NCBI RefSeq assembly: GCF_041381155.1
Contig: NC_091134.1
Coordinates: 6,376,255-6,440,254, forward strand
DNA from: Argopecten irradians
Taxonomy: Eukaryota; Mollusca; Bivalvia; Pectinida; Pectinidae
Direction of reading: 5' to 3'
Length of the DNA stretch: 64,000 nt
The notes beneath the pieces are model-generated. The model did no database searches. It had not been told where the DNA came from and saw nothing but the letters and a program-made list of their open reading frames with translations. The translations under genes were made by a program, and so were the position numbers. Positions 15,901 through 47,865 of this stretch are shown here, piece after piece; positions within the stretch are counted from its first letter, which is position 1, and every line of letters begins with the position of its first letter.

Positions 15901-18900
15901 GGTGCTTTGTTTTTACAAGCTGCGTTATTATGTCATTAGTACGGCAAAGATACAGTTAGTCGTTATTGATGTTCGCCGCCGCCATTGTAGCGGTTTGTAG
16001 GATTTACGGAACGGTAAATAGCGAGCCACATTATTAGTAACTCATACTCAAAACTGTTACATTGCACAACTTTGGCATAAATACTGGAGCAAATCGATCA
16101 TATCGAAGTATTTTGTAGGTGTTGTAGCGCTTTCGGTTCCTCTTTTTTAGTTTCGTTTTTACAACGTGTTTTCGTTTAAATATTCATTCCGTAATATTAA
16201 CCATCGTTTAAATATATAGTCGCCAAACGAACACTTATACATGGGTTAGGCCTAGTACACGCAAGTCTTGTTTATAATATACATATGTATTGCTAACGAT
16301 AGCAATACATGTGATTAATTGCATACTTCGTTTTTATTTTGTTTTGCTTGTGGTAAATACAATGATTATAAAGTTTACGGAACGAAGACGACATGTACAC
16401 AACTACCACAGTTGGTCATGGTAAAAAAAAACATCGGTCTAATTTCAACCACGAATAATTCGAAGTCTCGATGTTTCGAATGTCCCTTACAACTACTGTA
16501 TAATCACAATTAAGATAACAATGCACAAGTTGTATTGGCTGGGTCTCAACAACGGAATGTGTATGTGTACTACGGGTCAACAAATTGACATTGGCAGCTA
16601 CAGTTACTTCCTTTCCCAGTTGACAGTAAATTGGTATATGTAACCACATTTACACACACATATACTTTCTAGATGAAAAATGATGACACCTGCGAGGTAA
16701 TTATGATGAGGAGAATAGAAAAATAATGGCTTAATTCAATTTATAGGTGTTTCTCATTTATATATTACTATAGACAAAGAAGGAATGAAATAAAAATAGA
16801 GATGTTTGTGATCAGTTCGGGTCCTGGTACATGTCTAATTTCAGGTCAATGGTGTAAACTGAGATCCTGTTTTGCTTCAATACGATTGCTAAATTGCCTA
16901 AAAAAATTGAACTTATTTTTTTTTTTCTGAGCAGGATTTTAGTGTGAGCGTATGCAGAAGCAGCATCTTCTTAGTAAGAATATTGTTGGGACCAATTCAA
17001 ATAGCATCAACTTAACTTTAATATTCGAAAATTTAATAAAATTCAAAATTTATCAGAATATTGTTATATGATAAAAAATAATTGGGGAAACTTTTTCCTG
17101 TATGATTGCTAATCGGTATCACACATGTACAACTATGTATAATCAAAGTGTTAAGTTGACCAGACTTTCAAATGATACCTGCTGGATGAGGGCTTAATTC
17201 ATTATAGGTGACAAAAAAGATGTTTGACTGTCCTGGTTATAATAGGTAAACTGAATTTGCTTCAATACGTTGAAATTTATAACTTATCTTTTATCCCATT
17301 TTCTTCAACACAATATAAATTTCACAATTAAAATAACAATGCACAAGTTGTATTGGCTGGGTCTCGGCACAATGGAATGTGTACTACGGGTCATCAAATT
17401 GACATTGGCAGCTACAGTCGAGCCTTTCCCAGGGCCTTGATAACAAAATACATTAATTAACTCTCAACCATTGTTTTTCCCTTTAACAGTAAATGGTATA
17501 TGTAACACATTTACACACACATATAGGCCTATAAACAGCATCTAGATGAAACTAGGGCACCTGACTTGTGACACTGTCCAGGGAATATAGATTATCCAAC
17601 ACAAGTAATTATGATGTCATATGACACTTTGAGTAACATATTTAAGAATAGAAAAATAATGAATATTTCTTAATTGCCTTAATCTTTTCTTAAACTATAT
17701 TTCTTTTGTATGAAGTGGTACCGTGGGCCATATAATTTCCCATAATGCATTGTGTTTCTCATTTAAATATTACTATAGACAAAGAAGGAATGAAATATAT
17801 TTTAATTCCTCAAAAATACAGTTTATGTCTGTTTGTCGCCAAGTTTGATCAGTTCTGTCCTTATCTATAACTACATGTCTGTGCCAAATTTCATTGCTGT
17901 TAATGGTGTATAACTTGAGATATCCTGTTCACAAGGTGATTTTCAAAGCTAGGGGGTATGCTATAAGCTACGCTCCATCGTGCTAAAAAATTATACCTTC
18001 TTTAATGCTGTCATAACTCAAAAATGTGAAAGAATGTACACTAAAGTCTGAATATCATCGATGTTTTCACTTTGAAGTAGACCGGAAGTACACAAGAGCT
18101 GCGTGAAGTAAAGCTAGCAACATGTTATTTTCGTACCCATGCTTCGATGCAATGTTGTGAATTCCTCATAAAATAATAATGATAAAACATAATTATTGAC
18201 TTCTAGAGATGTAAAAGATTATTATCGATTTCGTTTTCATTACGGATCGGAAATATGTAAAAATACGAATATATTATATTAGGCAACTATATAGAGTACT
18301 ATATTAGAGTACTATAGATGTGAACCCCATGTCAAAAACGAAAGGTAGGCTAATTGAGTCAAAATCATAAATCACCTGATTAAAAATAAAAACTATAGGT
18401 CTAGAACTAAATAAATTGTAACTACTCTTATAGGTTTTAAATATTTTTTTTTCTTAATTTCAATGTTTTTCTGTATTTGAAATGTTTTGATATGGTGATT
18501 TATGCCTTACCATGATAATTTATATACAGTGTACCAGTTCACAGATGGTTTGACTTTGATTCATGCCGTAATTGATGTGCAGTAGTATTTTTGAGATGAC
18601 GTCATTTCAAAATTCAAATGATTTGATTTTTTTACAGTTACAGTGACTGAATCCTGCTGTACTTCACGTGTAATCAGAGGGATCTTGGCGCCCACCAAAG
18701 AATGATCTATATCTGACAAAGGAAACATGGATCTTTTCTCTACTTTTTCAACTTTTTCAAACATACTATGGTACATATAAAATTTGAGACAGATCGCTTC
18801 AGTACCTTTTGAGAAATAGCGGAAACAAACTTCAACTATCAAAATCCAAGATGACTCCTTGGCGGCCATCTTGTTAATCAATCGGTCCCAAATCACAATA

Positions 18901-21900
18901 TGCACAACTAAGGCCCTAGGGGAACCTACATGTGAAATTTGAGAAAGATCCATTCAATACTTTCTGAGAAATAGCGATAACAATCTTTGAATATAAAAAT
19001 CCAAGATGGCTGCCTGGCAGCAATCTTGTTGACCGATCGGTCCCAAATCACAATATGCACAACTAGCGCCCTAGGGGAACCTACATATGAATTTTGAGAC
19101 AGATCCCTTCAGTACTTTCTGAGAAATAGCGATAACAAACTTTGAATAACAAAATCCAAGATGGCTGCCTGGCGGCCATCTTGTTGACCGATTGGTCCCA
19201 AAATGCAATATGCACAACTAGGTCCCTAGGGGAACCTACATATGAAATTTGAGACAGATCCCTTCAGTACTATCTGAGAAATAGCCATAACAATCTTTAA
19301 CTATCAAAATCGAAGATGGCGGCTGGCGGCTATCTTGTTCACCGATTGGTCCAAAAATGCAATATGCACAACAAGGGCCCTAGGGGAACCTACATATTGA
19401 TCCCTTCAGCACTTTTTGAGAAATAGGGATATAAAACCTTAACTATCAAAATCCAAGATGGCCGCCTGGAATCCCTTCAGTAGTTCTCAAGAAATATCGA
19501 TAACAAACTCCAACTGCCAAAATCAAAGATGGCTGCCTGGCGGCCATCTTGTTTTTCCGATCAGCCTCAAAATCTGTATGGCACAACAAGGGATCAAGGG
19601 TAACCTCCATGTGAAGTTTGAACAAAATCCCTTCAGTAGTTCTCAAGAAATATCGATAACAAACTTCAACTGCCAAAATCAAAGATGGCTGCCTGGCGGC
19701 CATCTTGTTTTTCCGATCAGCCTCAAAATTTGTATGGCACAAATATGGACAAAGGGGACCCTCCATGTGAAGTTTGAACAAAATCCCTGCAGCAGTTTTT
19801 AAGAAATAGTGATAAAAAGCATTGTTTACGGAGGGAAGACGGACGATGGATGACAGACGACGGACTGCGGACGACGGACTGCGGACGACGGACAGCGGAC
19901 TACGGACGACGGACGACGGACCACGGACCAGGGCGATTTGAATAGCCCACCATGTGATGATGGTGGGCTGATGATAAGGAATGTAAAACTGCTAAAATTG
20001 GTTTTATTATCAATCAAACATTTATCAATATAAGACCATTATTGATTTATCAATAAAAACAGTTTTACTTCAATTGAATCTTTTGCTTGTATCTAACTGG
20101 TGATTCGTGGTCCGATCTGTGAATCGTCAACCCTGAATCGTGGATCGGATCGAATCGCAACATGTTGGACAATCCACAGCCCTATTAAATTATCTAATTT
20201 CATTGATGAAGATGCCTGTATTATGCCAGTTCTGTTATACCCTTATTCTTTTCAACATATCTGTTTTCGGAAAAAAGGATACTAGGCTTTACATTGAATT
20301 AACATTCAACAGTTTTTTTACAATTATATTTAATGAAGTAATATACGTACTTAATATTCATTTCATCATAAGTACTAATTTTAGAAAATATCAGACCTGT
20401 TACAGTATTAATCAAAATGTAACTAATCTGAGAGAAAAAAAATAAAACAAAAATGAAATTAAAATTTGATTGGTTTATATTTGTTTACTATTATTAATTT
20501 CATCATTTAATCAACATTTAGTCTAAAACCTACATTAAAATTCCGTAAAATTAATCCCCTTTAAAAACACATGATCCGGATCCATTATTACAATTACCCA
20601 AAATGGCAGCCATAACGATTGCAAAGTTTGTGATGTCCATGGATAGATAGGCCTATTAAACATTAAAAACGTGAGTAAATCATTTACAGTTGTAAGCAGT
20701 GTTTGTTTTTGAAGTAATACTTACTATCTATAATGCACAAAATTCTTTGAAAGGTCAGATGATTGTTTAATAAGCAGCCGATCGACCTCCGACTCAGTTG
20801 TAGGCTAATTCACCTTTGTACCTTACACACATGAATGTATGAATGACTGATAAATAGGAATGCTGGTGTTGGTCAGTGAGTGTTCACACCTCTATATCTA
20901 TATATGATACGTTGTAGACCCCGTTTCCAGTTTTAACACAACACCTCTTTGTTTACTTCATTATCAAGCCATGGCCAGTGCTTCACGGCCTGGTTTGTAG
21001 ATATGGCTAGGATTGGCGGATTTAACTGTATGGAACGTCTGAAAAAAATCTGTATTTGCAGATTTTTTTTAAGGTGCGCTGCATTTTTTTAAAAACTTTT
21101 TTCTCAACTTAGACATTTTAGGAGCGGGTTTCCTGACGAACAACTGATTAATTTGGTGTGGCCTAAGCATTGTCAACATTTATATTCTTTTAATCACACA
21201 TGTACAGTTGTTAAAATTGAGAAAGGTAATAACCAGAAAGTAATAAATGCCCTACCTTATATTGAATTGAGCCGAGACTAGACTGGACAGTAATGATGTG
21301 TTGACAACATTTTGTACCTCCAATTTTACGACAATAGCAATATGTATCAGAGTAAAATGACTTACTACAGAGGATGGGCGAGGACTGCTGTTTGACCTCT
21401 GTGTCTATACCGTCAGACACGCGGTCGTCCCTGGCGTGAATGGGCTGTTGGCTGATACCAGGACCGGGGCACAGGTAAGTCGATGACGGATAATGATGCA
21501 TGGCTGTGAAAATAAGGTGTCATGATAAAATGGTTATATTCATAAATTGCTGGACACAAATGGTAGTTTACACAAATGTTTTACTATACCTTGAGATTTT
21601 AATAAATGTTTTACTCAATGGTATACGGGTCAAGCCTTGACATTATTATGTACTGATCACATCATTTTATCTTGAGGTCCTTTTAATCTTTTCTGTACCT
21701 TGTTACAATACAATTTGTCCTCATTACCTTGACCTTCACTGATCAATACTACTGTGACCTTGACCTGTCCACAAGCACTTTGACCTCTCTGAACAACCTT
21801 GAACCTAACAGATTTATAAACTTTTATTATAAACCTCAATCTTCCATTACAACATTTACCTCTCTTTTTCACTTTAGCCTCAACTGCTCCCATACGAATG

Positions 21901-24900: not shown

Positions 24901-27900
24901 ATTGGCCCCTTTTGACCCCGCCCCTCAGGTCCCCGGGGGATCAGCCCCATCATTTGTACAATTTTGAATCCCCACCCTATAAGGACGCTACCATTGCATT
25001 ATGGGTGCTATCCCATGCTTGGTTTCCCCGCCCCTCAAGCCCCCGGGAAGGTCAGCCCTATCAATTGCACAATTTGGAATCCCCACCCTATAGGGATGCT
25101 ACCATTGCATTATGGGTGCTATACCATGCTTAGTTGCAGAGAAGAAGTCATTTATATGGAAAAAGCCAAATTGACCTCTTTTGACCCCGCCCCTCAAGCC
25201 CCCGGGAAGGTCAGCCCTATCAATTGCACAATTTTGAATCCCCACCCTATAAGGATGCTACCATTGCATTATGGGTGCTATACCATGCTCAATTTCGGAG
25301 AAGAAGTCGTTTATATGGAAATAGCCAAATTGGCCCCTTTTGACCCCGCCCCTCAGGTCCCCGGGGGATCAGCCCCATCATTTGTACAATTTTCAGTTAG
25401 TAGCCCATAAGGATGCTACCAGTCAAATTTTGTTGAAATCCGACCAGCGGTTATGGAGAAGAAGTCGATTGTTGACGGACGACGGACGCCGGACGCCGGA
25501 CGCTGCGGTATCCCATAAGCTCACCTCGGTCCTTCGGACCAGGTGAGCAAATAATATACTTACTTATCAGCGTGTGTACAAATTGGTAATGATTTATACA
25601 AAAAGTATACTTACTTGGTTTGACTTGGGGTGTTGTTGGGGCGGGTGTTGGAGCCGGTGTTTGGGGTTTAGCAGTTTCAGGAGTTGTAGCCAGGTTTTCA
25701 TTCACATAGTTACTGTAATCACAACACAAAGATGGGGTACAGATAAAACAAATGTAATTATAAATATACAGCTGCTTAAATCAACTCGGACAATGATGAT
25801 AATTTGGTATCATAATTCTTCTCCTTAAATTAACTATTTTTGTTAATCTTTCATTGTTACAGTTAACATTACATACTCATTAATATTATTTAACTGAAAA
25901 ATCCAGACATCCTCCCTCAGTATGTCAATATAGTGGTTCATTTAAACCTCATGCTTTAATTAAAACTAATAATTAGATTTTAGTGATGAGAGTTTATGTA
26001 TATACAGGTACAATTTTTAGCAAAATCAAAGCTAAAACACTGATGCTACATGTTTGTTTGTAGGTGTTGAACATCCTTTTAACAGTCAGGTTCATTTAAG
26101 ACTAGCTAGTATACGGATCTGTAGAAAACCCGGAGAAAACCCATCAACCATTGTCCAATATTGGCTTCAAACTCACAAATGGAGGACTAGTGGTAAAGTG
26201 TTAAAATACCATGATCGTTCAGTCTCTGGGCCACTGCAGTCCATATATCAACAAATATATGTCACAAAATCAAAACACCACACCACACTGTATATAGTAT
26301 CCACGGCATAGAAATACATTGTCATGGTGACAGTGACAGAGAAATACATTGTCATGGTGACAGTGACAGAGAAATACATTGTCATGGTGACAGTGACAGA
26401 GAAATACATTGTCATGGTGACAGTGACAGAGAAATACATTGTCATGGTGACAGTGACAGAGAAGGCTATGTTTATACTTACATAAAGGCAGTTTCGTTGT
26501 ACTCGCACGGACCACATTTATTACCAAGTTTGTACGTCAAATGTGGACAAGGTTCACATTCTGTAAAACACGAACAAAGCATAATAATTTCTGGACAATA
26601 TACATTTTGTTTACATCGGGGGAAATTAACTATATTTTGTTTATGCTCTATAGATAGAGATTTGGAATGCAAGGTACATTGCAATGTGATATTTATCAGG
26701 AATACCAAAAAGATGACCTATTCAGTGACTTATAATTACAGTATAAACATGCCTTTTATATTGGTGAGGGAGCCAAGTTTTGCATTTTACAATCACAATC
26801 ACAGGTTTTGAAGCAAATGAGAAATGAAATTTCGCTAATCTGGCTTCAAAACAAACTTTAGTCCAAAACTGACTTAAGTCTAAGTTTTCATATAAGTTAC
26901 ATAAGGAGAAAAAACTTAAAGTTTTGACTTAAGTCAGCACTTTTTTTTTGAGAAATCAGAGCCAGGTGATTAAGTCAATCAGCTTTAGAACAACAGAGCG
27001 CTGACAATGGTGGTGTAATAGTTACCCCCAGTAAGAACGTTGAGCTGCTGGTTTGGTGGACAACCTGCCTTCTTCAGGTTACATTCACACGATGTCTCTC
27101 CCCAAAAACACTTAGTGATGTCACATTTACAGTACTTGGCACAAAATATTTGGGGATCTTTTTCTCGAGAGGGTACAGTGTCTGAAAATAGGAGAATAAA
27201 ATTAACTGTATTGACAAAATAAGGTCCATGACAATTTGGACAAGGAAAATCAGAGTGGTTCTTGCTCAAATGAATTTATTTCAAATCCTATGTAGAGGTG
27301 CCAATGACTTCCTTATAATTACCACATATCAATGATTATATATTGCCCTGTAAGGAGGAATGAAGTGTGCTTCTAACAGAATCAATTACTTACAAATCAG
27401 ATATGATTCTAACATTGTCAACTGCTAACAAATCAGAAATGCTTCAAACATTATCAATTACTAACAAATAAGAAATGCTTCAAACATTATCAACTACTAA
27501 CAAATCAGAAATGCTTCTAACATTGTCAACTACTAACAAATCAGAAATGCTTCTAACATTGTCAACTACTTACAAATCAGATATGCTTCTAACATTATCA
27601 ACTACTAACAAATAAGAAATGCTTCAAACATTATCAACTACTAACAAATAAGAAATGCTTCAAACATTATCAACTACTAACAAATCAGAAATGCTTCTAA
27701 CATTGTCAACTACTAACAAATCAGAAATGCTTCTAACATTGTCAACTACTTACAAATCAGAAATGCTTCTAACAGAATCAACTACTTACAAATCAGAAAT
27801 GCTTCTAACAGAATCAACTACTAACAAATCAGAAATGCTTCTAACATTGTCAACTACTAACAAATCAGAAATGCTTCTAACAGAATCAACTACTTACAAA

Positions 27901-30900
27901 TCAGAAATGCTTCAAACATTATCAACTAGTTACAAATCAGAAATGCTTCAAACATTATCAACTACTTACAAATCAGAAATGCTTCAAACATTATCAACTA
28001 CTAACAAATCAGAAATGCTTCAAACATTATCAACTACTTACAAATCAGAAATGCTTCTAACATTGTCAACTACTAACAAATCAGAAATGCTTCAAACATT
28101 ATCAACTACTAACAAATCAGAAATGCTTCTAACATTGTCAACTACTAACAAATCAGAAATGCTTCTAACATTGTCAACTACTAACAAATCAGAAATGCTT
28201 CAAACATTATCAACTACTTACAAATCAGAAATGCTTCAAACATTGTCAACTACTAACAAATCAGAAATGCTTCTAACATTGTCAACTACTAACAAATCAG
28301 AAATGCTTCTAACAGAATCAACTACTTACAAATCAGAAATGCTTCAAACATTGTCAACTACTTACAAATCAGAAATGCTTCTAACATTGTCAACTACTAA
28401 CAAATCAGAAATGCTTCAAACATTATCAACTACTTACAAATCAGAAATGCTTCAAACATTATCAACTACTTACAAATCAGAAATGCTTCAAACATTATCA
28501 ACTTCTAACAGATCAGAAATGCTTCAAACATTATCAACTAGCTACAAATCAGAAATGCTTCAAACATTATCAACTACTTACAAATCAGAAATGCTTCAAA
28601 CATTATCAACTACTTACAAATCAGAAATGCTTCTAACATTGTCAACTACTAACAAATCAGAAATGCTTCTAACATTGTCAACTACTTACAAATCAGAAAT
28701 GCTTCTAACAAAAGAATCAACTACTTACAAATCAGAAATGCTTCAAACATTATCAACTACTTACAAATAGAAATGTCAAACATTATCAACTACTTACAAA
28801 TCAGAAATGCTTCTAACAGATTATCAACTACTTACAAATCAGAAATGCTTCTAACATTATCAACTACTTACAAATCAGAAATGCTTCAAACATTATCAAC
28901 TACTTACAAATCAGAAATGCTTCAAACATTATCAACTACTTACAAATCAGAAATGCTTCAAACATTATCAACTACTACAAATCAGAAATGCTTCTAACAT
29001 TGTCAACTACTACAAATCAGAAATGCTTCAAACATTGTCAACTACTACACAAATCAGAAATGCTTCAAACATTATCAACTACTAACAAATCAGAAATGCT
29101 TCAAACATTGTCAACTACTTACAAATCAGAAATGCTTCAAACATTGTCAACTACTTACAAATCAGAAATGCTTCAAACATTGTCAACTACTTACAAATCA
29201 GAAATGCTTCAAACATTATCAACTACTTACAAATCAGAAATGCTTCTAACATTATATGATCAACTGCTCACAAATGTTATAACATACCACTAGTGGAACA
29301 CCTGGCTTCCTGGAGCCTAAAACATTTGCGGTGACTGTCAAGTTTGAGGACGGACGATATGAGGTCAGGCTGGACAAGATCTCCCGGGCAATCTTCACAC
29401 GTCTCCTTCTCATAACTCTTGGCACACTCCTTAATCTGTTGTCCTGATTTACAAATCATACCACAACTCAAGATTCAGGTTTCAAGGAAAACAGAAACAA
29501 CTCAAAATCAAAGTTAAAGTTAAACTTCATTAACTCAATATTGGATTTTAGTGTACTTCAACTTATTTTGTTAGGACAATCAAAAGACCTCCAATTAACA
29601 GTTTTTAAATTACACGAATTTGAATGTGATCACATGTAGAGCTTTATACAGACAACTAACCTAATTATAAGGCTAAAATGCATTTTTCTCTTTCATTGTA
29701 AATCTCTATCAATGTTCTGTATTGAATGTATTTTCAATTTAAATTACAAAGATCTAGAGTATGACGGGAATGTGGCCAATTTAAGATTAAACTCCAAACA
29801 AATGTTAACTGATGATACAGAGAATTTGTGGCCATACAGATAGAATAGATAATTATGATGGTAGTTATAAGTGCATACCATGGTGGCAGTTGAAGACTGG
29901 TTTACAAATTTTGGTGCCTCGCTGATAGGTGCTGGTCAGGACAATTTCACTTCCATCACTACCAGCAACATGGAACACAATCTACAAAATAACATCAATG
30001 TTCATTATAAATATGATAATTATATAAAGCCTCACATAAGAGGCCCAGGGGACCTGTATCCTCTTCCTAGAAGGATATTTATGTATACGTTACTGGCTGA
30101 ATTGGGTTTGAATTCCATTTGTAACTTTTTGACCAGTAGTACAGTGATTTAAAAGAAATGCTGATGTACGTTGGGCATTGAACACTGCATCATGGCCAGG
30201 TAAGATAAAATAAATGGACAGATACAGCTTTAGAGAATCTGGCTACTTAAGTTTGTATGTGGGCCCTAATAATTATATATATATAGCTCGAGCTCCAGCA
30301 GAAGATTTCTGAAAAGTGTGAAATAGTACTACCTTTAGGCTTTATATAAAAGGTACAAATAAGGAGTTACATCCTAGACGTCCTATAATGTATATTAATC
30401 AAGACCAATAAAATTTGACATGCGTATATTCTAATTAAGAGACCTTGATAAACATATGACTGATGCTGCTAATAGAGGTGTTCAGGCTAGTTAACAGTGC
30501 TCGGATAACAACATGCTAATTCAGCGTTTCCAAGGAATAGTATGTGACTCAATCAATTTTTAATGAAACTAGTACCTTGGAGCAACATCAAACTCTTCCA
30601 AAAAATCAATAACTGTTTTTGTGTGATCATGATTTCATACGTTAACTTAACTGCAGACCTACAGCACAACATGTTAATCAGCATGTTCAAGACAATTTTT
30701 CTTATGATAAATAGTATATATATATATATAATATACAAGACTAGAGTAGTCCTGGCTTCATTTACATAAATTACTATACTGGTATATATATGATACAGCC
30801 ATACAGAAGTTTACAATCTATCTTATAAGCTTCAAAACATTCTGTAAACCAGAAAACCAGGGGCAGCGATCGATGGCCGAACATGTGAGTTGTTATGAAC

Positions 30901-33612: not shown

Positions 33613-34775
33613 AGCTACATGTACAGGAAACTATGTAAATCTAGGTCACATTACATTGGCCATGACATGTCCATATGATCTATAGCATGAATGTCGATAT
33701 AAAACCACAAAACCAGAAATAGATCTACTAATGTACACACTACAATAATATAACACTAACAATCTCACACCAGCTGAAAGCCAATGAGAGTACTAGTGTT
33801 CCTGGTCTATTTTTTACCAAAAATGATAAACTAGGAGTGTCACTCAAGATCTCACAATACAAAATGCATGTTATAAATATAAATCATCCATGAACAAGGG
33901 CCCATCTAAGAGGTACAATGGTCATAATCATCTCGCAACTTAGATTTGGCACAAGTTGCATAGAAACAGAAATATGTTTCTCAAGATAGCGACTTTCAAA
34001 TTTAAACTTTGATGTGTATTCAAGATGATGGCAGTGGCGGCAATCTTTGATTTCAAATCAATCAGAAAAATAACAACACTAACTTAACTTGGATAATGTG
34101 TCAATCTAGGATCATTTATTTAAATAAATTTCGGGCAAGTTTCATCTACATTGCACTTTAAACCCCCTAATTAAACTTAAAGATTGGACCCTGGCTATTA
34201 ATATGACATTAATTCAATCAAAGCTAACCATGCAGGGCACATAAAAAAACACCCTCCCCCTTACATGTATACGTAGTACTATAGATTTGATCTGGCTTAA
34301 AACTTTGTAATTGTGTAAGGGGTGAGTGTTGATCAAAATTTTCAGCAGGTCAAATATGTCAGGACCTTCGATAAATTAATTCGCTATTGAACTAGAAACC
34401 ATTCAATGATGACATCGATCATCACATATCAATATCACATACATGTACAATGGATCGATATCTATCAGGAATATTTTGATAGTGGGATTATATCTGTTAT
34501 ATGCATGGGTGTCATAAATTTAATTATAAATATACCATCATGGGGTATGCATCTATAAGTTCTATAGCAAGTAGATGGCCATCATATTATGTTACATATT
34601 TATAGATGTTGGGAAAGAGGGGAGGGGGGTTAATTAAGAGGGTTTTGTAACACCAATACTGAACAGGAAATAGCTCGTGATCGGAAAGACAGGAAATAGA
34701 ACAAATATGTAATGCAAAACATACTGCATTGATTCATAGTCTAATCGCATAACATTAATCAGTTACGTATATATA

Positions 34776-34905
34776 TGTAGCGGGATTGGACTGGATCGAT
34801 CATCGGTGACCAGGTAGCTCAGTCGGTAGAGCACTCGGCTAGTATTCTGAGGGTCCCGGGTTCGAATCCCGGTCTGGCCGCTACATTTTCTCCTCTCCTG
34901 TTACA
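34776..34905 (+). repeat. Left LTR of the tRNA-bearing TRIM
   Basis: 130 bp, TGTAGC...GTTACA. It differs from the right LTR at two sites (GGATCG versus GGGTCG; ACTCGG versus ACTCAG). The tRNA-like region occupies its centre. Confidence 0.75.
34808..34880 (+). tRNA. tRNA-like gene, probable Thr(AGT)-type, in left LTR
   Basis: The 73-nt sequence folds as a cloverleaf. The acceptor GACCAGG/TCTGGCC has one A-C mismatch and one G-T pair. The D arm is GCTC/GAGC, the anticodon stem CTCGG/CTGAG, and the T arm CCGGG-TTCGAAT-CCCGG. Box A (TAGCTCAGTCGG) and box B (GGTTCGAATCC) fit the Pol III consensus. The anticodon loop CTAGTATT has 8 rather than 7 bases; the base after T33 reads AGT (Thr). The extra base suggests a tRNA-derived promoter module rather than a working tRNA. 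Confidence 0.65.
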
Positions 34906-34909
34906 GAAT

Positions 34910-34920
34910 TGGCGCCCAAC
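34910..34920 (+). promoter_or_regulatory. Primer-binding site of the TRIM
   Basis: TGGCGCCCAAC, four bases after the LTR end, is complementary to the 3' end of tRNA-Lys including CCA, as known from Lys-primed retroelements. It does not match the element's own tRNA-like sequence beyond TGGCG. Confidence 0.65.
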
Positions 34921-34998
34921 TAAATAACCCACGGTGGTGGTGTTTGGAAGGGTCTCGTGTGTCTTCGAGGGCGAAGACTTCGAGAAAGGAGGGAGGAG

Positions 34999-35128
34999 TG
35001 TAGCGGGATTGGACTGGGTCGATCATCGGTGACCAGGTAGCTCAGTCGGTAGAGCACTCAGCTAGTATTCTGAGGGTCCCGGGTTCGAATCCCGGTCTGG
35101 CCGCTACATTTTCTCCTCTCCTGTTACA
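34999..35128 (+). repeat. Right LTR of the tRNA-bearing TRIM
   Basis: 130 bp, preceded directly by the purine tract. A short partial repeat of its end (ACTCCTGTTACATAT, 35134-35150) follows. Confidence 0.75.
35031..35103 (+). tRNA. tRNA-like gene, probable Thr(AGT)-type, in right LTR
   Basis: Identical to the left copy except CTCAG in the anticodon stem, which pairs perfectly with CTGAG. It has the same 8-base loop and intact A and B boxes. Confidence 0.65.
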
Positions 35129-35153
35129 TATTACTACTCCTGTTACATATATA

Positions 35154-37230: not shown

Positions 37231-40125
37231 TTAGTAGAACGTTGGTCGAAATTTGGTTGGGTGGTTGACCCACAATTTGTTCAGTCTGGATTTAAAGCAA
37301 TTAAGCGTTGGTGATGTAACCACTTCCTCTGAGAGCGAGTTCCATGTATTAATTACTCGATTACTGAAGAAATTTCCGGTTGAGTTTAGCCTAAATCGTT
37401 TTTTGAAGAGTTTTTTCGAGTGTCCTCTAGTTGCTATACCCGTTAGTTCTCTGAACATAGTTGTTTGATCCAGAATGTCTATTTTGTTTAAAATCTTGTA
37501 GACTTGAATCACATCTGCCCTGTTTCTTCTATATTCTAAACTTGGTAGCCCGAGTGTCTTGATACGCTCTGAATACGATAAGTTTTTAATTGTTGGTATC
37601 CTTTTAGTTGCTCTTCGTTGTACGTTTTCCAGTGTAATTTTATCACGTGTCAACATTGGTGACCAGATTGTAGTTGCGTACTCCAAATGGGGACGAATTA
37701 AAGTTTTGTATAGAGTAATAAACATGGTCGGACTCATGTAGGTGAAGGTGCGGAACACTATTCCCAACATCCTATTCGCTTTTAAGGCTGCTGCATTACA
37801 TTGTGCTGTGAATTTGAGTTGGTTGTCTATAGTGACTCCAAGATCCTTTTCCATGGTTACTCGAGAGATAGTAGTCGTGTTGCCTTGTGTTGTGAGGGTG
37901 TAATTGTGGTTTCCCAGATTGTTTCCAATTTCCAAGAATTTACATTTGTCTGTGTTAAGGCTCATTAACCATGTCGACGTCCAGTCACACATTTTGTTGA
38001 TATTTTCTTGCAGCTTAGAACGGTCATCATCTGATGTGATTTTTGCTGATAGTTTAGTGTCATCTGCAAATAGCTTTATTGTGCAGTCCAACATATCTGG
38101 CATATCGTTAACGTAAATTAGGAATAGGATTGGTCCCAGCACACTCCCTTGTGGCACGCCACTGGTGACGGGTAGTTCTGTCGATAGTTGACCATTGACC
38201 GTGACACTTTGAACGTTGTTGGCCAGGAATGCAGTTATCCAACTTAGAATTTTCCCTCCAATATTGTAGCTTCTCAATTTGTGGATAAGAAATCTGTGTG
38301 AAACCTTGTCAAACGCTTTACTAAAGTCTAAATATATCACGTCGATGTTACTTCCTGAGTCTAGTCCACTATACCAATCTTCAAGTGTTTCTAATAGTTG
38401 TGTAATGCAGGATCTTCCTGGCCTAAACCCATGTTGGTGTGGAGTAAAGAGATTGTTGTTGTCCATATGCTCTAGAAGAATATCTCTGATTATTCGTTGC
38501 ATAATTTTTGATGGTACTGAAGTTAGGCTGATGGGCCTGTAATTATTAGCTTCTTTTTTTGCTCCTTTTTTGAAAATTGGTGTAACTATTGCTCTGTTCC
38601 AATCTTTTGGTAATGTTGATTCATCGAGTGATTTCCTGTAAATTATGGATAGAGGTTTTTTGATGACATCAGCAGTTTCACAAATGAATTTGGGGTGTAG
38701 ATTATCTGGTCCAGGAGATTTATTGGGGTTAATTCTTTTAATTGCTTTGAAGACAGTTTCTTCGCTTATGAAGATATCCGTCAGTACGCTGTTGACTTGT
38801 CTTGGAATAACCACTGGCAATGGTAGATCCCCGTCATTAACGAAGACACTGGCAAAGAAAGTGTTCAGGACATTCGCAGTTTCTTCGTTATTTGTTGTAA
38901 TTGTTCCGTTTCCGGCTTCGATACCCCCTATCGTTGATTTAGTCTTGGTTTTGGATCGGACTCGGGACCAAAAAAGTTTCGGATTTGTTTTGATTTTCAG
39001 AGATAAATCCTCTTCGTACTTATATTTTGATTTTCTAATGATTTTTGTTGCATTGTTACGGGCTACTTGGTAGCTTTGGAAGTTCTCAGGAGTCTTGCTA
39101 TTAAGGTATTTGTACCATTTTCGTCTTTTCAATGCTATTCCTGCACGAGCTTCCTTGTCAATTTCTGGATTGTGAGGTCGACTGGAGTGTTGTACCCTAC
39201 TCACTGGTATATGCTTTTCTATAATGGTTTGGAGATGTTCAGTAAAGTACGTCCAGGCGTTCTCAATACCATCTATATTGTTTAGGAAGTCACAGTCAAT
39301 GGTGTACAAATCTTCCTTGATTGCTTCGTAGTCTCCTCTCTGGAAATTTAGCTTCCTCACATTGATGTTTTTGTTTACTGGATTGGTGTAGCAGATCGTT
39401 TTAAATATGATACCCACATGGTCGCTTTTGCCAATACTATCTAGGTACGCGATGTCTTCTATCATTTCCTCCTCATTTGTGAATATTAAGTCTAGTAGCG
39501 ATGGGATTTGGTTCTCCCGAAGTCTTGTTGGTTGTCTTAGATGTTGATGCAGGAATTTGTTCCTAATAGTTTCAAGAAATTTACTTGCGGGGTTGTTCGG
39601 ACCTGCCATTGATACTTGAAGTTCCCAATTAATTTCCTTGTAATTAAAATCTCCTAACAGCAATATATGGGTTGGCTTGTTGTTGTCTATCCCATTAATA
39701 ATTCTGTTCAGAAGCATGTTGTTTTCTTCAGTGCTATTCGGGCTCCTATAGATACAACATATATGAAGGATGTCTCTGTTTTGTAGCTTGATCTCACATT
39801 TGACATAATCTAGACAATGGTGTTCCTTAATTTGTTCTGCATTCAGATTATTAGTAATATAAATAATGGTTCCCCGCGATTCACTACTTCCGAGGTATGA
39901 CGTGTACCCGTCAATGTTGTACAAAGCTGTGTCGATAGGTAACGTTGTGAACTTTGGGAAGATTTCAGTCAGGCATATGATTCCAGGTTTTTCTATAGAA
40001 ATGAGGTTTTCCAATTCAAGTTTTTTGGTAGTGGTTAGAGTATCCACATTTGAGTAGTAAATTTTGATGTTTTGAATTGTTGCGGGGGCTGATTTTTCCT
40101 TGTTAAAACTGATAAAACTTGTCTC
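37231..40125 (-). CDS. LINE ORF2: AP endonuclease plus reverse transcriptase
   Basis: The frame opens immediately after the ORF1 stop (TAG, 40126-40128) and runs to 37231. There is no ATG before the endonuclease domain (KIYYSNVDTL...); a GTG lies at 40045-40047. Counting from that GTG (938 codons), the endonuclease shows PGIICLTEIF near 21-30, YRSPN near 100 and LGDFNY near 131-136, with a later SDHVGIIF. The reverse transcriptase shows NKSPGPD, DFSKAFDKVSH, GVPQGSVLGPILF and the catalytic FADDTKL near 658. The C-terminal part has the thumb-like LIRPHLEYA...W region. The enzyme nicks target DNA and copies the element RNA there. Sharing a frame with ORF1 suggests UAG readthrough or reinitiation, or one nonsense mutation in a fused ORF. 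Confidence 0.88.
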   Translation of the reverse strand, partial: ETSFISFNKEKSAPATIQNIKIYYSNVDTLTTTKKLELENLISIEKPGIICLTEIFPKFTTLPIDTALYNIDGYTSYLGSSESRGTIIYITNNLNAEQIKEHHCLDYVKCEIKLQNRDILHICCIYRSPNSTEENNMLLNRIINGIDNNKPTHILLLGDFNYKEINWELQVSMAGPNNPASKFLETIRNKFLHQHLRQPTRLRENQIPSLLDLIFTNEEEMIEDIAYLDSIGKSDHVGIIFKTICYTNPVNKNINVRKLNFQRGDYEAIKEDLYTIDCDFLNNIDGIENAWTYFTEHLQTIIEKHIPVSRVQHSSRPHNPEIDKEARAGIALKRRKWYKYLNSKTPENFQSYQVARNNATKIIRKSKYKYEEDLSLKIKTNPKLFWSRVRSKTKTKSTIGGIEAGNGTITTNNEETANVLNTFFASVFVNDGDLPLPVVIPRQVNSVLTDIFISEETVFKAIKRINPNKSPGPDNLHPKFICETADVIKKPLSIIYRKSLDESTLPKDWNRAIVTPIFKKGAKKEANNYRPISLTSVPSKIMQRIIRDILLEHMDNNNLFTPHQHGFRPGRSCITQLLETLEDWYSGLDSGSNIDVIYLDFSKAFDKVSHRFLIHKLRSYNIGGKILSWITAFLANNVQSVTVNGQLSTELPVTSGVPQGSVLGPILFLIYVNDMPDMLDCTIKLFADDTKLSAKITSDDDRSKLQENINKMCDWTSTWLMSLNTDKCKFLEIGNNLGNHNYTLTTQGNTTTISRVTMEKDLGVTIDNQLKFTAQCNAAALKANRMLGIVFRTFTYMSPTMFITLYKTLIRPHLEYATTIWSPMLTRDKITLENVQRRATKRIPTIKNLSYSERIKTLGLPSLEYRRNRADVIQVYKILNKIDILDQTTMFRELTGIATRGHSKKLFKKRFRLNSTGNFFSNRVINTWNSLSEEVVTSPTLNCFKSRLNKLWVNHPTKFRPTFY

Positions 40126-41439
40126 CTAGTCTGTTTCCTCCCTATTGCCAGGAGGAGACATTGCTGTCATCTCTAAATTTTCACTATCAACATGTGTGTT
40201 GTTGTAGATCAGGGTTTGTTCGTTGTCGTCATACATAGTTGTGTTGTGGTAGGCTGAGTAGCTACTTGTTGACGGGTCCACGCTCATCATTCTTGCCAGT
40301 ATTGGACTTATTGGTAGTTTGGCATTTCCACTGTTACTGGGATATCGATGAGGATTTTGTTGAGTACTCATCATGGTTGGTTCAAAAAAATTGGTACAAG
40401 TAGCACCAGGGGCAGCAGAATGATTGGGAATGTTCGACAATGACATGTTTTGTGGTCCTTTTGAACCTGTCTTTGGGTTTGGCATGGGTCGGGATGGGCC
40501 TGTGGCGGAGCATTCCCCACGCATCAGGTTACCTTCCCTTCCTGTTGCCAATAAGACAGTGTGATCATTTTCTGGTTCCCTTGGTATAGTTGGAATAGGT
40601 GGAGTTGGCCTTTTATCCTTTCTTTCGTTCTTTCTTTCTTGCCTCTGTTCTCTTGTTAGGTCCCTGGTTAGGATCACTTTCCTAAAGGGTCCTTGTAGTG
40701 TGTCTTTGATTGTATGCGCCTTCTGGAGGAGATGTTTTCTTTGTTTCTTATCTTTCATCACTAGGATAGTAGGCCTGATGTAGTTATTTTTTGGTTTTCC
40801 CATTCTGTATATTGCGGCTTTATTTAATTCCTCGACCCCTAAGGCTAGACATATATGTCGGATTTGATCCTCATCCTCTGTCTTCCTTGATTGTGGACTT
40901 TCTTCATTGGATGGTTCAGGAACATTAAACAATATAAGATTAAATTCTTTGCTTTTCCTTTCCTCAAGTTCTTTCATCCTGTTATCCACTAATTTGGTTA
41001 CATTGGTTTTCATAGTGGTTTCAATGGTAGATTTAGTCTGACTAATCTCTCTTTGAATGGTGAGTTTAGTGTCCATTTCCAACTTGGTTATTCGTGTATC
41101 GATACCAGTAATTCTCTTTTCGTTGGATACGTATAATTCCTTAATTGACTTATCAATTTTGTCGAGGGTGGGCTGTACCCGGGTACAGGTTCTGCACTTG
41201 TAGGCTATTCCTGTTGATACACTGTTTACCATGTGTTGGTAGACTTCGTCTGGTACTTTGGTACACTGTTGACAAAAATTTTGCCTGCAGTTCTCACACT
41301 CTAGATGTTTAGTGTTTGTGTTTAGGGGAAGATCACATTTAGCACAAAAATTGTTAGTGTCATTAAGACCCCTCTTCCTTTTGTTTTGTGTAGATTCACT
41401 GTTACATATATCCAGTCTCTGTACACTCACTTTCGTCAT
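40126..41439 (-). CDS. LINE ORF1: PHD-type zinc finger, coiled coil and RNA-binding-like domain
   Basis: 437 codons. Residues about 32-85 are a Cys-rich PHD/RING-like finger (CAKCDLPL, LECENCRQNFCQQC, YKCRTC). About 90-165 is a coiled coil with heptads. About 165-280 resembles the RRM-like/CTD core of LINE ORF1 proteins (EFNLILFNVPE, ICLALGVEE, KVILTRDLTREQRQERKNER). The C-terminal part is polar and low complexity. It is presumed to be the nucleic-acid-binding chaperone of the ribonucleoprotein. The start is uncertain: an overlapping frame begins MSVTSINSNMDDESEC about 30 bp upstream and ends soon after the ATG used here, so the true N-terminus may be frameshifted. Confidence 0.78.
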   Translation of the reverse strand: MTKVSVQRLDICNSESTQNKRKRGLNDTNNFCAKCDLPLNTNTKHLECENCRQNFCQQCTKVPDEVYQHMVNSVSTGIAYKCRTCTRVQPTLDKIDKSIKELYVSNEKRITGIDTRITKLEMDTKLTIQREISQTKSTIETTMKTNVTKLVDNRMKELEERKSKEFNLILFNVPEPSNEESPQSRKTEDEDQIRHICLALGVEELNKAAIYRMGKPKNNYIRPTILVMKDKKQRKHLLQKAHTIKDTLQGPFRKVILTRDLTREQRQERKNERKDKRPTPPIPTIPREPENDHTVLLATGREGNLMRGECSATGPSRPMPNPKTGSKGPQNMSLSNIPNHSAAPGATCTNFFEPTMMSTQQNPHRYPSNSGNAKLPISPILARMMSVDPSTSSYSAYHNTTMYDDNEQTLIYNNTHVDSENLEMTAMSPPGNREETD

Positions 41440-41517
41440 CCATATTTGAATTAATACTTGTTACTGACATTGTTCCTTGATAAGTTTTATTACAACTTTG
41501 CGTAGCCAGTGTTTAGT

Positions 41518-43129: not shown

Positions 43130-43319
43130 TGTAGTGTAGTGACATTAATTGTTCAAGGTGTGTTGTCGCTACATCATGTGTAACCTTGTTGTCCGCTTTT
43201 AGGATGACGTCCGGAACTCTGTATCCGGTTTCCGGGTTTTACTGTTAGAATAAATTAGTAAGATCACCGCCATTTGCACGAGTTGTGTTTTGAATATCGA
43301 CGGAACCCAAGATATTACA
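43130..43319 (+). repeat. 5' LTR of the Gypsy element
   Basis: Begins TGTAGTGTAGTGACATTAA and ends GATATTACA. It is about 190 bp, short for the group. The leader starts ACTGGCGACGAGG, the likely primer-binding site. Contains AATAAA near 43251, a possible polyadenylation signal. Confidence 0.88.
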
Positions 43320-43320
43320 A

Positions 43321-43334
43321 CTGGCGACGAGGTT
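43321..43334 (+). promoter_or_regulatory. Probable primer-binding site of the Gypsy element
   Basis: CTGGCGACGAGG lies one or two bases after the LTR end. The position and the TGGCG start fit a tRNA primer site; the tRNA was not identified. Confidence 0.45.
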
Positions 43335-43378
43335 GATTTTGTCAACCAACTCAGTGTTTATGTATATATATAAGCACT

Positions 43379-44311
43379 ATGGCGAAAGTAGGACGGATAG
43401 GCGAGTTCGTGGAGGGGAAAGAAGATTTCAATTGTTACATCGAACGGCTCGAGCAATTTTTTGCAGCCAATGACATTGCCGATGATAAACGTGTTGCTGT
43501 GTTTCTAGCCGTGGTAGGGGCTGACACATACGCGTTATTGAGAAACATTCTGACGCCAGACCTCCCAAGTACGAAGTCCTATGATGAAATAAAGACTGCA
43601 TTGTCAGGACATTTCGCACCAAAACCCCTCGTAATAGCTGAACGGTTTAAGTTTCACAGTAGGAAACAGCAAGTGGGGGAATCCGTGTCTGATTGTGTTG
43701 TGAGTCTTAAGAAATTAGCCAAAGACTGTGACTTTCAAGATTTTCTGAATCAAGCCCTACGTGATAGACTGGTTTGTGGGTTGATGAGTGAGGTAATCCA
43801 AAAGAAACTGTTGGCCGAAAAAGATTTGGATCTTGCCAAGGCAACCGAGATAGCGTTAGCTGTAGAGATGGCGACCAAAAACACAGAGGAGATGGGACAG
43901 CCTGTATCGGTAACTCAGTCGGTCAATTATGTAAACTGTAAGTCTAATCGGAGTCGTATGGGAAAATCTTTGAAACTAGGTCAAAGTGAGAAGTCTAAAA
44001 AGCCAGACAATCTGAAGTTGTGTTTTCGGTGTGGAGGAAAACATGCACAGTCGGACTGTAAGTTTATCAAAGAGAAGTGCTACTCTTGTCAGCAGATTGG
44101 ACATATTGGGAAAAAATGTCCAAACAAAAGGTCCAAAGGTCATGTAGGTGCTCAGAATAAGTATGTCGTAGTAGAGGAATGTGACAGGGACAATGACGAT
44201 GAAGATGGATTCTTATTTGGACTATATTCAGTGAATGATTTGGACAATTCAGGATACAAGGTAAATCTAAAGCTGGACGGTAATCCGGTCGAGTTCGAGG
44301 TGCGGCAGTAA
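43379..44311 (+). CDS. Gypsy gag polyprotein (ends at a damaged protease junction)
   Basis: 310 codons. Residues about 15-170 have the retrotransposon-gag capsid-like fold signature (YIERLEQFFAAND, ALSGHFAPKP, FKFHSRKQQVGESVSD). Two zinc knuckles follow: CFRCGGKHAQSDC (about 215-227, CX2CX3HX4C) and CYSCQQIGHIGKKC (about 234-247, CX2CX4HX4C). The frame stops at TAA (44309-44311), just where the protease domain should begin. The Asp-Thr-Gly triad expected after EFEV is absent and the pol frame continues one frame over, so a small deletion probably broke an original single gag-pol frame. Confidence 0.85.
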   Translation: MAKVGRIGEFVEGKEDFNCYIERLEQFFAANDIADDKRVAVFLAVVGADTYALLRNILTPDLPSTKSYDEIKTALSGHFAPKPLVIAERFKFHSRKQQVGESVSDCVVSLKKLAKDCDFQDFLNQALRDRLVCGLMSEVIQKKLLAEKDLDLAKATEIALAVEMATKNTEEMGQPVSVTQSVNYVNCKSNRSRMGKSLKLGQSEKSKKPDNLKLCFRCGGKHAQSDCKFIKEKCYSCQQIGHIGKKCPNKRSKGHVGAQNKYVVVEECDRDNDDEDGFLFGLYSVNDLDNSGYKVNLKLDGNPVEFEVRQ

Positions 44312-47300
44312 CCATGTGCGCGGAGAATGTGTACAACCGGTACTTTTCTCATCTGCCCTTGCAAAAACCGACCGTAAGGCTTAGAGACTATGGTGAAGGA
44401 CGCGTACCATTACTTGGTGATATATTAGTTCCAGTGAACTATGGTAGTCAGAATTATGTGTTACCATTACGTGTTGTTTGTGGCGATCGACCGTCATTGC
44501 TAGGTAGAAACTGGCTAAAACACGTTAAGTTAGGCTGGCCAAGTATTTTTGCCTTGAAGCGTTATCCGAAATCCGATGGTGTGAAATCTGAAGTCGACAA
44601 GCTGCTTGCGAAGCATCATAAACTGTTTGAAAAGGGTTTAGGAACCATAACCGAGTTCAAAGCGCAGGTCAAGGTCAAAGATGGTGTGCAGCCGATATTT
44701 TGTAAGGCAAGACCGCTGCCTTTCTCATTGAAGGAACGCGTTGAGAAAGAACTCGAACGACTACAGAGCGAAGGAGCTTTATCGCGAGTCGAGCGAAGCG
44801 ATTGGGCGACCCCGATAGTTGTCGTGCCAAAATCGGACAAATCGATACGCCTCTGTGGTGATTTTAAAGTGACTGTGAATAGGTGTCTGGACGAACAGCA
44901 ATATCCACTACCAAATGTGGAAGAGATGTTTGCTCAACTAGGCGGTGGACAAAAATTCACGAAGTTGGATCTATCGCAGGCATATCAGCAATTGAGCCTG
45001 GACGAACAATCAAAGCAATACCTGACAATCAACACACATCTAGGTCTGTTTCGATATCACAAATTAGCATTTGGTGTGTCGTCAGCTTCAGCCATCTTCT
45101 AGTCAGTCATGGATCAAATTCTACAAGGAATACCGCATGTAATGTGTCGTATAGACGATATCTTGATAACTGCTCCGACCGATCGTGAACACATAGAAAT
45201 CCTGAGCGAGGTATTGAGCCGACTCGACAAGCACCATGTTTTGTTGCGTAAAGACAAATGTCTGTTCATGCAAGATTCTGTGGTTTATATGGGCCATAGG
45301 GTTAACAGTGATGGAATTCACCCTACCGAGGCTAAAGTCAAAGCAATTAAGGAAGCACCAAGTCCAACGAATGTAACTGAACTGAAATCGTTTCTCGGGC
45401 TTTTGAACTATTATGGTCAGTATCTTCCAAATCTCTCGACTACGCTCCAGCCATTACATGAGCTGTTGAGGCAAGACAAACCATGGAACTGGACATCAGA
45501 TTGTGAAGAAGCGTTCAAAGCATGTAAGTTTCAGTTGTCCAATGAGCGTGTTCTAGTACATTACGACATCAACAAGCCTTTGAGATTGGCTTGTGACGCG
45601 TCTGCCTACGGAGTAGGAGCTGTGATCTCCCATATCAGCGAAACTGGTGAGGAATGACCGATAGCCTATGCATCGAGGACACTTTCGAAGAGTGAAAAGA
45701 ACTATGCCCAAATCGAGAAAGAGGCACTCGCGTTAGTGTTCGGGGTCAGGAAATTTCACAAGTACCTCTATGGCCGTAGGTTTACGTTAGTGACTGATCA
45801 CAAACCGTTAACAACGATTCTGGGTCCGAAGAACGGTGTTCCGACGTTAGCTGTTGCTCGCATGCAGAGGTGGGCTCTCATCTTATCTGCGTATCAGTAC
45901 GATATTGTATACTGGAAATCCGAGGATCATGTGAATGCTGATGCATTATCGCGCTTGCCACTCAAGTCTGATGAGAAGTCTGAAGAATTGGACATTTACC
46001 ATTTCACACTACTGGATGACTTGCCGATTATGTCTGAATATATAGCGACAGAGACACGACGCGACCCTGTACTCTCGAAAGTACTTGACTACACCCTTAG
46101 GGGATGGCCGAATTATACATCAGATAGCGATCTACAGCCGTACTTCCAACGCAAAGATGAACTGTCAAGTGAGCAAGGATGCGTGTTGTGGGGTTTGCGT
46201 GTTGTTATACCGCCAACTTATCACGAGAGACTTCTGTCAGATCTTCATGACCAGCATGTTGGAATGAGTTGTATGAAAGCGCTAGGCCGGAGTTATCTGT
46301 GGTGGCCTAATCTGGACAAAGACATTGAGAGCATGGTGAAAGCCTGTAGTGCTTGTCAGGCTACGCGAAACATGTCTCCAGTAGCTCCGCTTCATTCCTG
46401 GTCATGGCCTACACGTGTGTGGCAACGTCTACATATAGACTTTGCGGAGAAAGACAAACAAAACTTTTTGGTCGTTATTGATAGTCATTCAAAGTGGATC
46501 GAGGTGACTCACATGACAACGACCACCTCTAGTAGAACGATTGAGGTTCTGCGTTCACTATTTGGTTCGTATGGTCTACCAGAGGAGATTGTCTCCGACA
46601 ATGGGCCGCAATTCACATCCAGTGAATTTGAATTGTTCCTTAGCAAAAACGGAGTGAAGCATACGGTCGTGGCACCGTACCATCCTGCTTCCAACGGAGC
46701 TGCCGAACGATCGGTACAGATACTTAAGCGTGTGTTGAGAAGCAAGTTTTTGATGAGAATGGTCAGCTTTCTATTCAGCATAGACTCAGTAATTTCTTGC
46801 TGAAGTATCGATCCACACCGCATTCGGTAACTGGAGTACCGCCCGCTGAATTGTTTCTTAAGCAACAAATCCGAACCCAGTTATCAATGCTGAAACCAAA
46901 TCTAGGAAGGCGTGTGGCAGGTAAGCAAGCCGAACAGAAACGCCAACATGACAAAGGACGCGTTAAAGTTCGAACATTCTCACCTAAGCAGACTGTACGT
47001 GTTAGGAATTTCCGTGGGGGTCATGAGAAATGGATTCCGGGCAAGATTGTGAAGCAATTAGGTCCTCTTGCGTACCTCGTGCGCGGCGGACCAAACATTC
47101 GTTACGCACATGTCGATCATATCTTAGCATCGGGGGAAGAACTGTTAAATGAGGAAGTGCCTATGACAAAAGACAGTCCATTTGTGTTACCCGAGACAAT
47201 CGCTAGATCTCCGAAACTAGTCGTTTCTTTACCGCCAGAATCTCTAAATGTAAAGGAACCACCAGCGATGCCCTCTCCGGCAAAAGTAACACATAATGAC

Positions 47301-47438
47301 AGTAGTCCAAAAGGAGTTCTGCCAGCTCCCACTACCAGTCCTATGCCTATTGTAAGCCCGCCATATCCCAGTCCGATGACTCCTGTACGCCGCAATCCAC
47401 CAAGGACGCGCCAGGCACCATCAAGACTTGATCTGTGA
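44312..47438 (+). pseudogene. Gypsy pol (PR-RT-RNase H-INT), broken
   Basis: Remnant protease (LLGDILVPVNY, SLLGRNWL), then reverse transcriptase (FTKLDLSQAYQQL; RIDDILI, a variant of the YxDD box), RNase H (LACDASAYGVGAV, YASRTLSKSEKNY, TDHKPL) and integrase (HHCC zinc domain VGMSCMKALGRSYLWWP...CSACQ; catalytic Asp in LHIDFAE, Asp in SDNGPQFTS, Glu in NGAAERS; a GPY/F-like end GPLAYLVR). Breaks: TAG at 45100-45102 in RT, TGA at 45655-45657 at the start of RNase H, and a one-base frameshift in a T run near 46747-46751 in INT. It ends at TGA 47436-47438. Confidence 0.9.
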
Positions 47439-47657
47439 ACTGTTGATTGTGTTAAATAATATTAACTGTGTTTAAAGTGTTTTTCTAAGAATTTTGATAA
47501 AAAGTTAAATTTTGGAAAAAGATAATGAAGATCAAGTAGGTCTTTTGAGGATAATTTTTTTATGGACAGAGTAAGTTGATTTGTTCAGCAAGTTTGTGAA
47601 TGACTTTAAAGAGTTCTGAACGATACACACTGTGCTCTGTGTCAGGAACATTAACGT

Positions 47658-47672
47658 TAAAAGGGGGAGGAG
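47658..47672 (+). promoter_or_regulatory. Polypurine tract of the Gypsy element
   Basis: AAAAGGGGGAGGAG lies directly against the 3' LTR, where plus-strand priming occurs in LTR elements. Confidence 0.7.
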
Positions 47673-47865
47673 CGTAGTGTAGTGACATTAATCGTTCAAG
47701 GTGTGTTGTCGCTACATCATGTGTATCCTTGTTGTCCGCTTTTAGGATGACGTCCGGAATTCTGTATCCGGTTTTCGGGTTTTACTGTTAGAATAAATTA
47801 GTAGTAAGATCACCGCCATTTGCACGAGTTGTGTTTTGAATATCGACGGAACCCAAGATATTACA
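47673..47865 (+). repeat. 3' LTR of the Gypsy element
   Basis: About 193 bp. It matches the 5' LTR except for about five substitutions and an extra AGT. The first base is C rather than T. Confidence 0.88.

Follow-up and report, generated by a model that had tools for sequence, protein, structure and literature searches.

A miniature LTR retrotransposon with tRNA-like sequences in its repeats, very probably of the Helenus kind, in the scallop Argopecten irradians

The element and its surroundings

The window analysed here is a stretch of 64,000 nucleotides from the genome of Argopecten irradians (NCBI RefSeq assembly GCF_041381155.1, contig NC_091134.1, positions 6,376,255 to 6,440,254 of the forward strand). 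At 34776-35128 it holds a compact element of 353 bp, made up of a 130-bp LTR, a 93-bp internal region and a second 130-bp LTR, and these limits, which had been given in the original prediction, stand. Reading of the sequence together with a repeat search places the 5' LTR (TGTAGCGGG...CTGTTACA) at 34776-34905 and the 3' LTR at 34999-35128, both, like all stranded features of the element, on the plus strand. The two direct repeats of 130 nt are offset by 223 bp and are identical at 128 of 130 positions (two differences). Both start with TGTAG and end with TTACA, in keeping with the predicted TG...CA limits. The internal region (34906-34998; sequence, repeats and a frame scan) is without a long frame. 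It includes a primer-binding site, TGGCGCCCAAC, at 34910-34920, starting four bases past the first LTR, and a polypurine tract of 17 nt, GAGAAAGGAGGGAGGAG, at 34982-34998, which adjoins the 3' LTR; a primer site after the first repeat and a purine tract before the second had both been foreseen. The primer site is of a type that we take to be Lys (tRNA-Lys). There is no sign of coding potential, the longest stop-to-stop frame within the element being 67 codons, which agrees with the earlier statement that no ORF is present.

As had been proposed, each LTR carries a sequence that resembles a tRNA and has boxes A and B. The sequence occupies 34808-34881 in the 5' LTR and 35031-35104 in the 3' LTR; both copies are called by ARAGORN and score 48.4 and 49.6 bits, respectively, against the Rfam tRNA model (RF00005), for which the gathering score is 29 bits. 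A box A-like motif, TAGCTCAGTCGG (34815-34826), and a box B-like motif, GGTTCGAATCC (34859-34869), can be read directly from the sequence, and motifs for these boxes are given in PMC10886601. ARAGORN assigns both copies an undefined type with a four-base anticodon, and the cmscan alignment contains one non-standard pair in the acceptor stem. About five bases beyond the tRNA-like sequence in both LTRs lies a TTTT, which may be a weak Pol III terminator in the 5' LTR (34886-34889) and the terminator of genomic RNA in the 3' LTR (35109-35112). The minimum-energy fold of the tRNA-like part differs from the full cloverleaf, and the energy of this part folded alone lends no support (z -0.49, with 60 of 200 shuffles folding as well). 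A bacterial promoter/terminator scan is irrelevant here.

The flanks of the window copy reveal a target-site duplication that was probably altered after insertion. On the left side, TATA at 34772-34775 can be assigned as the 5' duplication from the sequence and from the 4-bp duplications at sister copies, and at the right edge of the element, 35128, the duplication looks imperfect (TATA/TATT). A repeat search places a tandem duplication across this LTR/flank junction (35118-35150, plus strand), in which CTCCTGTTACATAT occurs twice, 19 bp apart, at 35118-35131 and again at 35137-35150. The extension at the right edge is absent from the 38 other loci whose right end was in view. We read the right edge as the trace of a tandem duplication, about 20 bp in size, that arose after insertion and in which one base was lost from the first copy; the original target duplication would then have been TATA/TATA, with its 3' member now in the second copy at 35148-35151.

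The rest of the window contains further repeats and one long gene-like frame. A LINE at 37231-41460, on the minus strand, encodes endonuclease and reverse transcriptase in an ORF of 964 aa and has a 444-aa ORF upstream of it. A single-exon ORF at 53730-55904 encodes 724 aa with an nSTAND3 NTPase and ankyrin repeats, and its closest matches are scallop proteins (Mizuhopecten yessoensis, 62% over 98%; Ylistrum balloti, 58% over 98%; Pecten maximus, 66% over 60%). Long tandem arrays are found at 4-1912, 27368-29255, 57849-62956, 13912-14732 and 18772-19469, with periods of 36 bp (about 52 copies; two arrays with different units), 156 bp (about 32 copies) and 155 bp.

Copies across the genome and their mode of insertion

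The element is present in many copies. Searching the 846-Mb genome with a 48-base LTR end gave 1268 matches with up to three mismatches, and the LTR/primer-site junction gave 677 at the same threshold; reversed controls gave 0 in both cases, and chance can be excluded because the LTR-end pattern is met 1268 times against 0 for its reversed form. The 40 best matches to the window copy were collected, a sample that leans towards young, full-length copies. Exact 4-bp duplications flank 27 of these 40, or 26 of 38 once two loci are dropped, namely L024, whose flanks are the same as those of L002, and L038, where an array is cut at the locus edge. When each left flank was paired with the right flank of another copy, exact duplications arose 2.3 times on average and at most 8 times in 2000 such shuffles. 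The LTR pair is identical in 13 of the 37 two-LTR copies in this sample, picked as it was by likeness to the window copy, and at least those insertions therefore look recent. L002 and L024 have the same flanks on different contigs (C12 and C10) and seem to represent one insertion that was either copied with its surroundings or assembled twice.

A second census, which includes the window copy, was sampled by LTR end rather than by likeness to that copy. Its 70 loci (L041-L070 and L089-L128), among the first-listed, exact-match places of the 1268, reduce to 63 distinct sites: 31 have the order LTR-internal-LTR, 3 are complete elements in two pieces, 14 are truncated or rearranged, and 15 are solo LTRs, a share that is somewhat overstated because 12 listed C3-C6 sites already collected among L004-L038, together with the last three listed C7 places, were left out. 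Exact 4-bp duplications flank 22 of the 31 two-LTR sites (shuffled mean 1.2) and 12 of the 15 solo LTRs (shuffled mean 1.3), with a shuffled maximum of 6 in each case. They are missing at nine two-LTR sites and three solo LTRs, and are present at one of the 14 truncated or rearranged sites. The three two-piece sites, initially labelled as possible arrays, are single elements whose internal region was matched in two pieces, and two of the three have exact duplications.

These data bear on whether the repeats could be a duplicated tRNA locus, that is, a real tRNA gene in tandem copies with a 223-bp period. The original prediction had set this out as the case against itself, expecting tandem clusters only, with neither solo LTRs nor target duplications. 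Tandem arrays do occur: L008 comprises six LTRs and five internal regions in near-identical units, L028 is a three-LTR array, and L038 is cut within an array. However, 15 of the 63 sites are lone LTRs and 31 consist of exactly two LTRs around one internal region, exact 4-bp duplications flanking most of them, and L008 itself is flanked by CATG/CACG, as for one insertion amplified later. The non-standard pair in the acceptor stem and the window copies' want of a defined anticodon also fit a real tRNA gene poorly. The solo LTRs and target duplications thus speak for an LTR retrotransposon, and we regard a duplicated tRNA locus as having almost no chance of being correct. Dispersed copies, solo LTRs and short target duplications, which had been named beforehand as the evidence to look for, are all present in the genome.

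Two copies have unusual flanks. In L025 the first two LTR bases are AA instead of TG and the element is flanked by a 14-bp repeat, TTTGACATCAAAAC, in place of 4 bp, while the three-LTR array L028 is flanked by a 9-bp repeat, GTAACATTG. Perhaps these were repair-mediated insertions.

Another origin to be weighed is a SINE that acquired a repeat by accident and was mobilised by a LINE. Such an element would account for the tRNA head with its A and B boxes, and a LINE lies close by at 37231-41460. However, the fixed length of the 4-bp duplications, the TG...CA ends and the solo LTRs all argue against a SINE, as do the correctly placed primer site and purine tract and the lack of an A-rich tail at the right end; we consider this origin wildly improbable. 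The LTR structure, the primer site and purine tract, the dispersed and near-identical copies, the exact 4-bp duplications and the solo LTRs together show integration by an LTR-element integrase with later LTR-LTR recombination. Retrotransposition of this kind is established as far as sequence can establish it.

Place among known elements

We hold with high confidence that the locus is best explained as a miniature LTR retrotransposon (TRIM) that is non-autonomous, belongs to the Helenus kind and resides in a scallop genome. Kojima (2024, Biology 13:119, PMC10886601) gave the name Helenus to TRIMs with a tRNA-like sequence in their LTRs, with 51 families in bivalves and records from three scallops. 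The kind of element is thus already known, and the view in the original prediction that no such animal family had been described is wrong. Members measure 311-1263 bp and have a primer site and a purine tract, and in animals their target duplications are of 4 bp (PMC10886601). The primer sites of bivalve families include tRNA-Lys as well as other types, with which our Lys-type assignment of TGGCGCCCAAC agrees (PMC10886601). Solo LTRs have been reported for fungal families, and tandem arrays for LTR-11_DR (PMC10886601).

Compared by published description, the window element shows no structural difference from Helenus. TRNA-like sequences with boxes A and B are found in both of its LTRs; it has two LTRs, is short (353 bp, inside the range of 311-1263 bp) and is without coding sequence; and a primer site follows the 5' LTR and a polypurine tract precedes the 3' LTR. 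Duplications of 4 bp are found at 26 of 38, 22 of 31 two-LTR and 12 of 15 solo copies. Solo LTRs, tandem arrays, a scallop host and a Lys-type primer site unrelated to the carried tRNA complete the likeness. For this last trait, which the original prediction had pointed out, Kojima's report provides support, as it notes no complementarity of the primer site to the carried tRNA in Helenus (PMC10886601). The assignment to Helenus is a very probable one that draws on structure and host rather than on a letter-level alignment with a published family.

The type of the carried tRNA varies between copies. Among 15 further loci, ARAGORN called five as tRNA-Thr AGT (L080, L086, L095, L098 and L101), three as undefined, one as Val and one as Glu, and made no call in the remaining five. 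Thr is the type named for seven bivalve Helenus families that are able to encode tRNA-Thr (PMC10886601). The loci L079-L087 are variants whose LTR identity ranges from about 95% down to 78%, some of them called tRNA-Thr AGT; they keep the primer-site context, a conservation that is there by selection since they were retrieved by that context.

Several other TRIMs share parts of this design. Cassandra, a plant TRIM, likewise has a Pol III gene with its promoter in the LTRs, and the analysis supports the original comparison with it, in which a TRIM-like element has LTRs that hold a tRNA gene. Cassandra also forms tandem arrays, according to the available part of PMC7215508, which is a likeness to arrays of the L008 type. 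It differs in being a plant element and in carrying 5S rRNA rather than tRNA; an Rfam scan of the window found only the tRNA family reaching its gathering score, and no 5S rRNA. An animal example with a fragment of a Pol III gene in the LTRs of a TRIM is Ajax of nemerteans (PMC10886601), which differs in carrying 5S rRNA, in its 5-bp duplications and in its length of 421-434 bp (PMC10886601). A bivalve TRIM, biv-TRIM (Satovic et al. 2019), is similar in its solo repeats and tandem arrays (PMC6934838). Its repeats are given as 202-218 bp and its internal region as 77-80 bp, with no unambiguous primer site, and the available excerpt of that report makes no mention of a tRNA in the repeats (PMC6934838). 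Membership in biv-TRIM was considered and rejected, the window element having repeats of 130 bp and an internal region of 93 bp against 202-218 bp and 77-80 bp.

Transcription, mobilisation and significance

How such an element may be transcribed and moved can be outlined from its parts, and for both Pol III use and a Gypsy-type partner we offer an inferred scheme. Pol III would start in the 5' LTR, slightly upstream of the tRNA boxes, leak past the first TTTT there and stop at the second, in the 3' LTR; R would measure about 90 nt and take in the whole tRNA-like sequence. A cellular tRNA of the Lys type would prime reverse transcription, and a Gypsy-type element would supply Gag, reverse transcriptase and integrase in trans. 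For Helenus, a functional Pol III promoter is expected, although according to Kojima it cannot be concluded without experiment (PMC10886601).

The difficulty in the Pol III step is that the TTTT in each LTR would end Pol III transcripts early. With TTTT after the tRNA-like part in both LTRs, a genomic RNA made by Pol III would have to be a read-through product. The motif is well kept, in 115 of 116 LTRs with at least 97% identity, 39 of 40 with 93-97% and 18 of 20 below 93%, counts in which many LTRs had been gathered with a pattern that includes TTTT. It is possible, though at somewhat less than even chances, that genomic RNA arises only when Pol III leaks past a weak TTTT within R, a signal that the polymerase would pass over in the 5' LTR but heed in the 3' LTR. 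That RNA would also have to escape tRNA end-processing at two tRNA-like folds, and a short tRNA-like RNA would be the main transcript, with transposable RNA a minor one. The required escape from end-processing would explain the imperfect acceptor stem and the ill-defined anticodon. The main text of PMC10886601 does not use the words read-through, termination or TTTT and mentions a terminator once, for Cassandra. Cassandra carries terminators and its RNA runs from the 5' LTR to the 3' LTR (PMC10886601 and the available part of PMC7215508), and some read-through is therefore already implied there. Its RNA has a terminal repeat of 18 bp (PMC10886601), as against the roughly 90 nt proposed for the window element.

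Alternatively, the genomic RNA of a Helenus-type TRIM could be made by Pol II from elsewhere in the LTR, with the tRNA-like part as a passenger, a decoy or an RNA-structure element. Such an origin would replace just one part of the best explanation, its transcription step. Pol II would be consistent with the TTTT just after the tRNA-like part, which should halt Pol III in the 5' LTR, and with the state of the boxes in diverged copies, box A and box B each being intact in 11 of the 20 collected LTRs below 93% identity. However, transcription from its own Pol III promoter has been reported for Cassandra, the parallel in plants (PMC10886601), and of the 116 LTRs with 97% identity or more, 112 have an intact box A and 111 an intact box B, which is weak evidence since the patterns or likeness used to pick most sites include the boxes. 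In the 37 LTRs below 97% identity, mean conservation is 0.963 in box A, 0.978 in box B and 0.942 elsewhere in the tRNA part, while the 5' flank reaches 0.903, TTTT 0.993 and the 3' flank 0.997; no conclusion can be taken from this comparison because most sites were picked with a pattern that covers box B, TTTT and the LTR end. On balance, we consider transcription by Pol II unlikely.

Mobilisation of animal Helenus by Gypsy elements that share the primer-site region has been inferred by Kojima (PMC10886601). Searching for an autonomous partner among the 10 other sites with the primer-site context TNACANANTTGGCGCCCAACV did not find one: nine have Helenus LTR matches on both sides, and the tenth (L088) is an LTR remnant of 52 bases, for which 10 kb of sequence showed neither a second LTR nor a frame of 120 codons. 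The window itself holds a Gypsy-type LTR element at about 43131-47803, with LTRs of about 190 bp that start with TGTAGTGTAG and end with TTACA. Pieces of a gag zinc knuckle, reverse transcriptase, RNase H and integrase can be recognised in it, in frames that are split by stops. It has the TGTAG...TTACA ends and a GGAGGAG purine tract in common with the window TRIM. It was considered as a partner and dropped, its primer-site region being CTGGCGACGAGG as against TGGCGCCCAAC; because the two differ, partnership cannot be claimed.

The window element is genuine, belongs to a published kind and is both young and numerous. Its value lies in the confirmation by numbers that a chromosome-scale scallop assembly provides: LTR ends number 1268, some insertions have LTRs identical to each other, and solo LTRs leave behind single tRNA-like loci. 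Helenus loci can inflate predictions of tRNA genes, as some copies are called tRNA-Thr by ARAGORN. Being young and numerous, the copies also make a practical test case for the use of Pol III by an animal TRIM.
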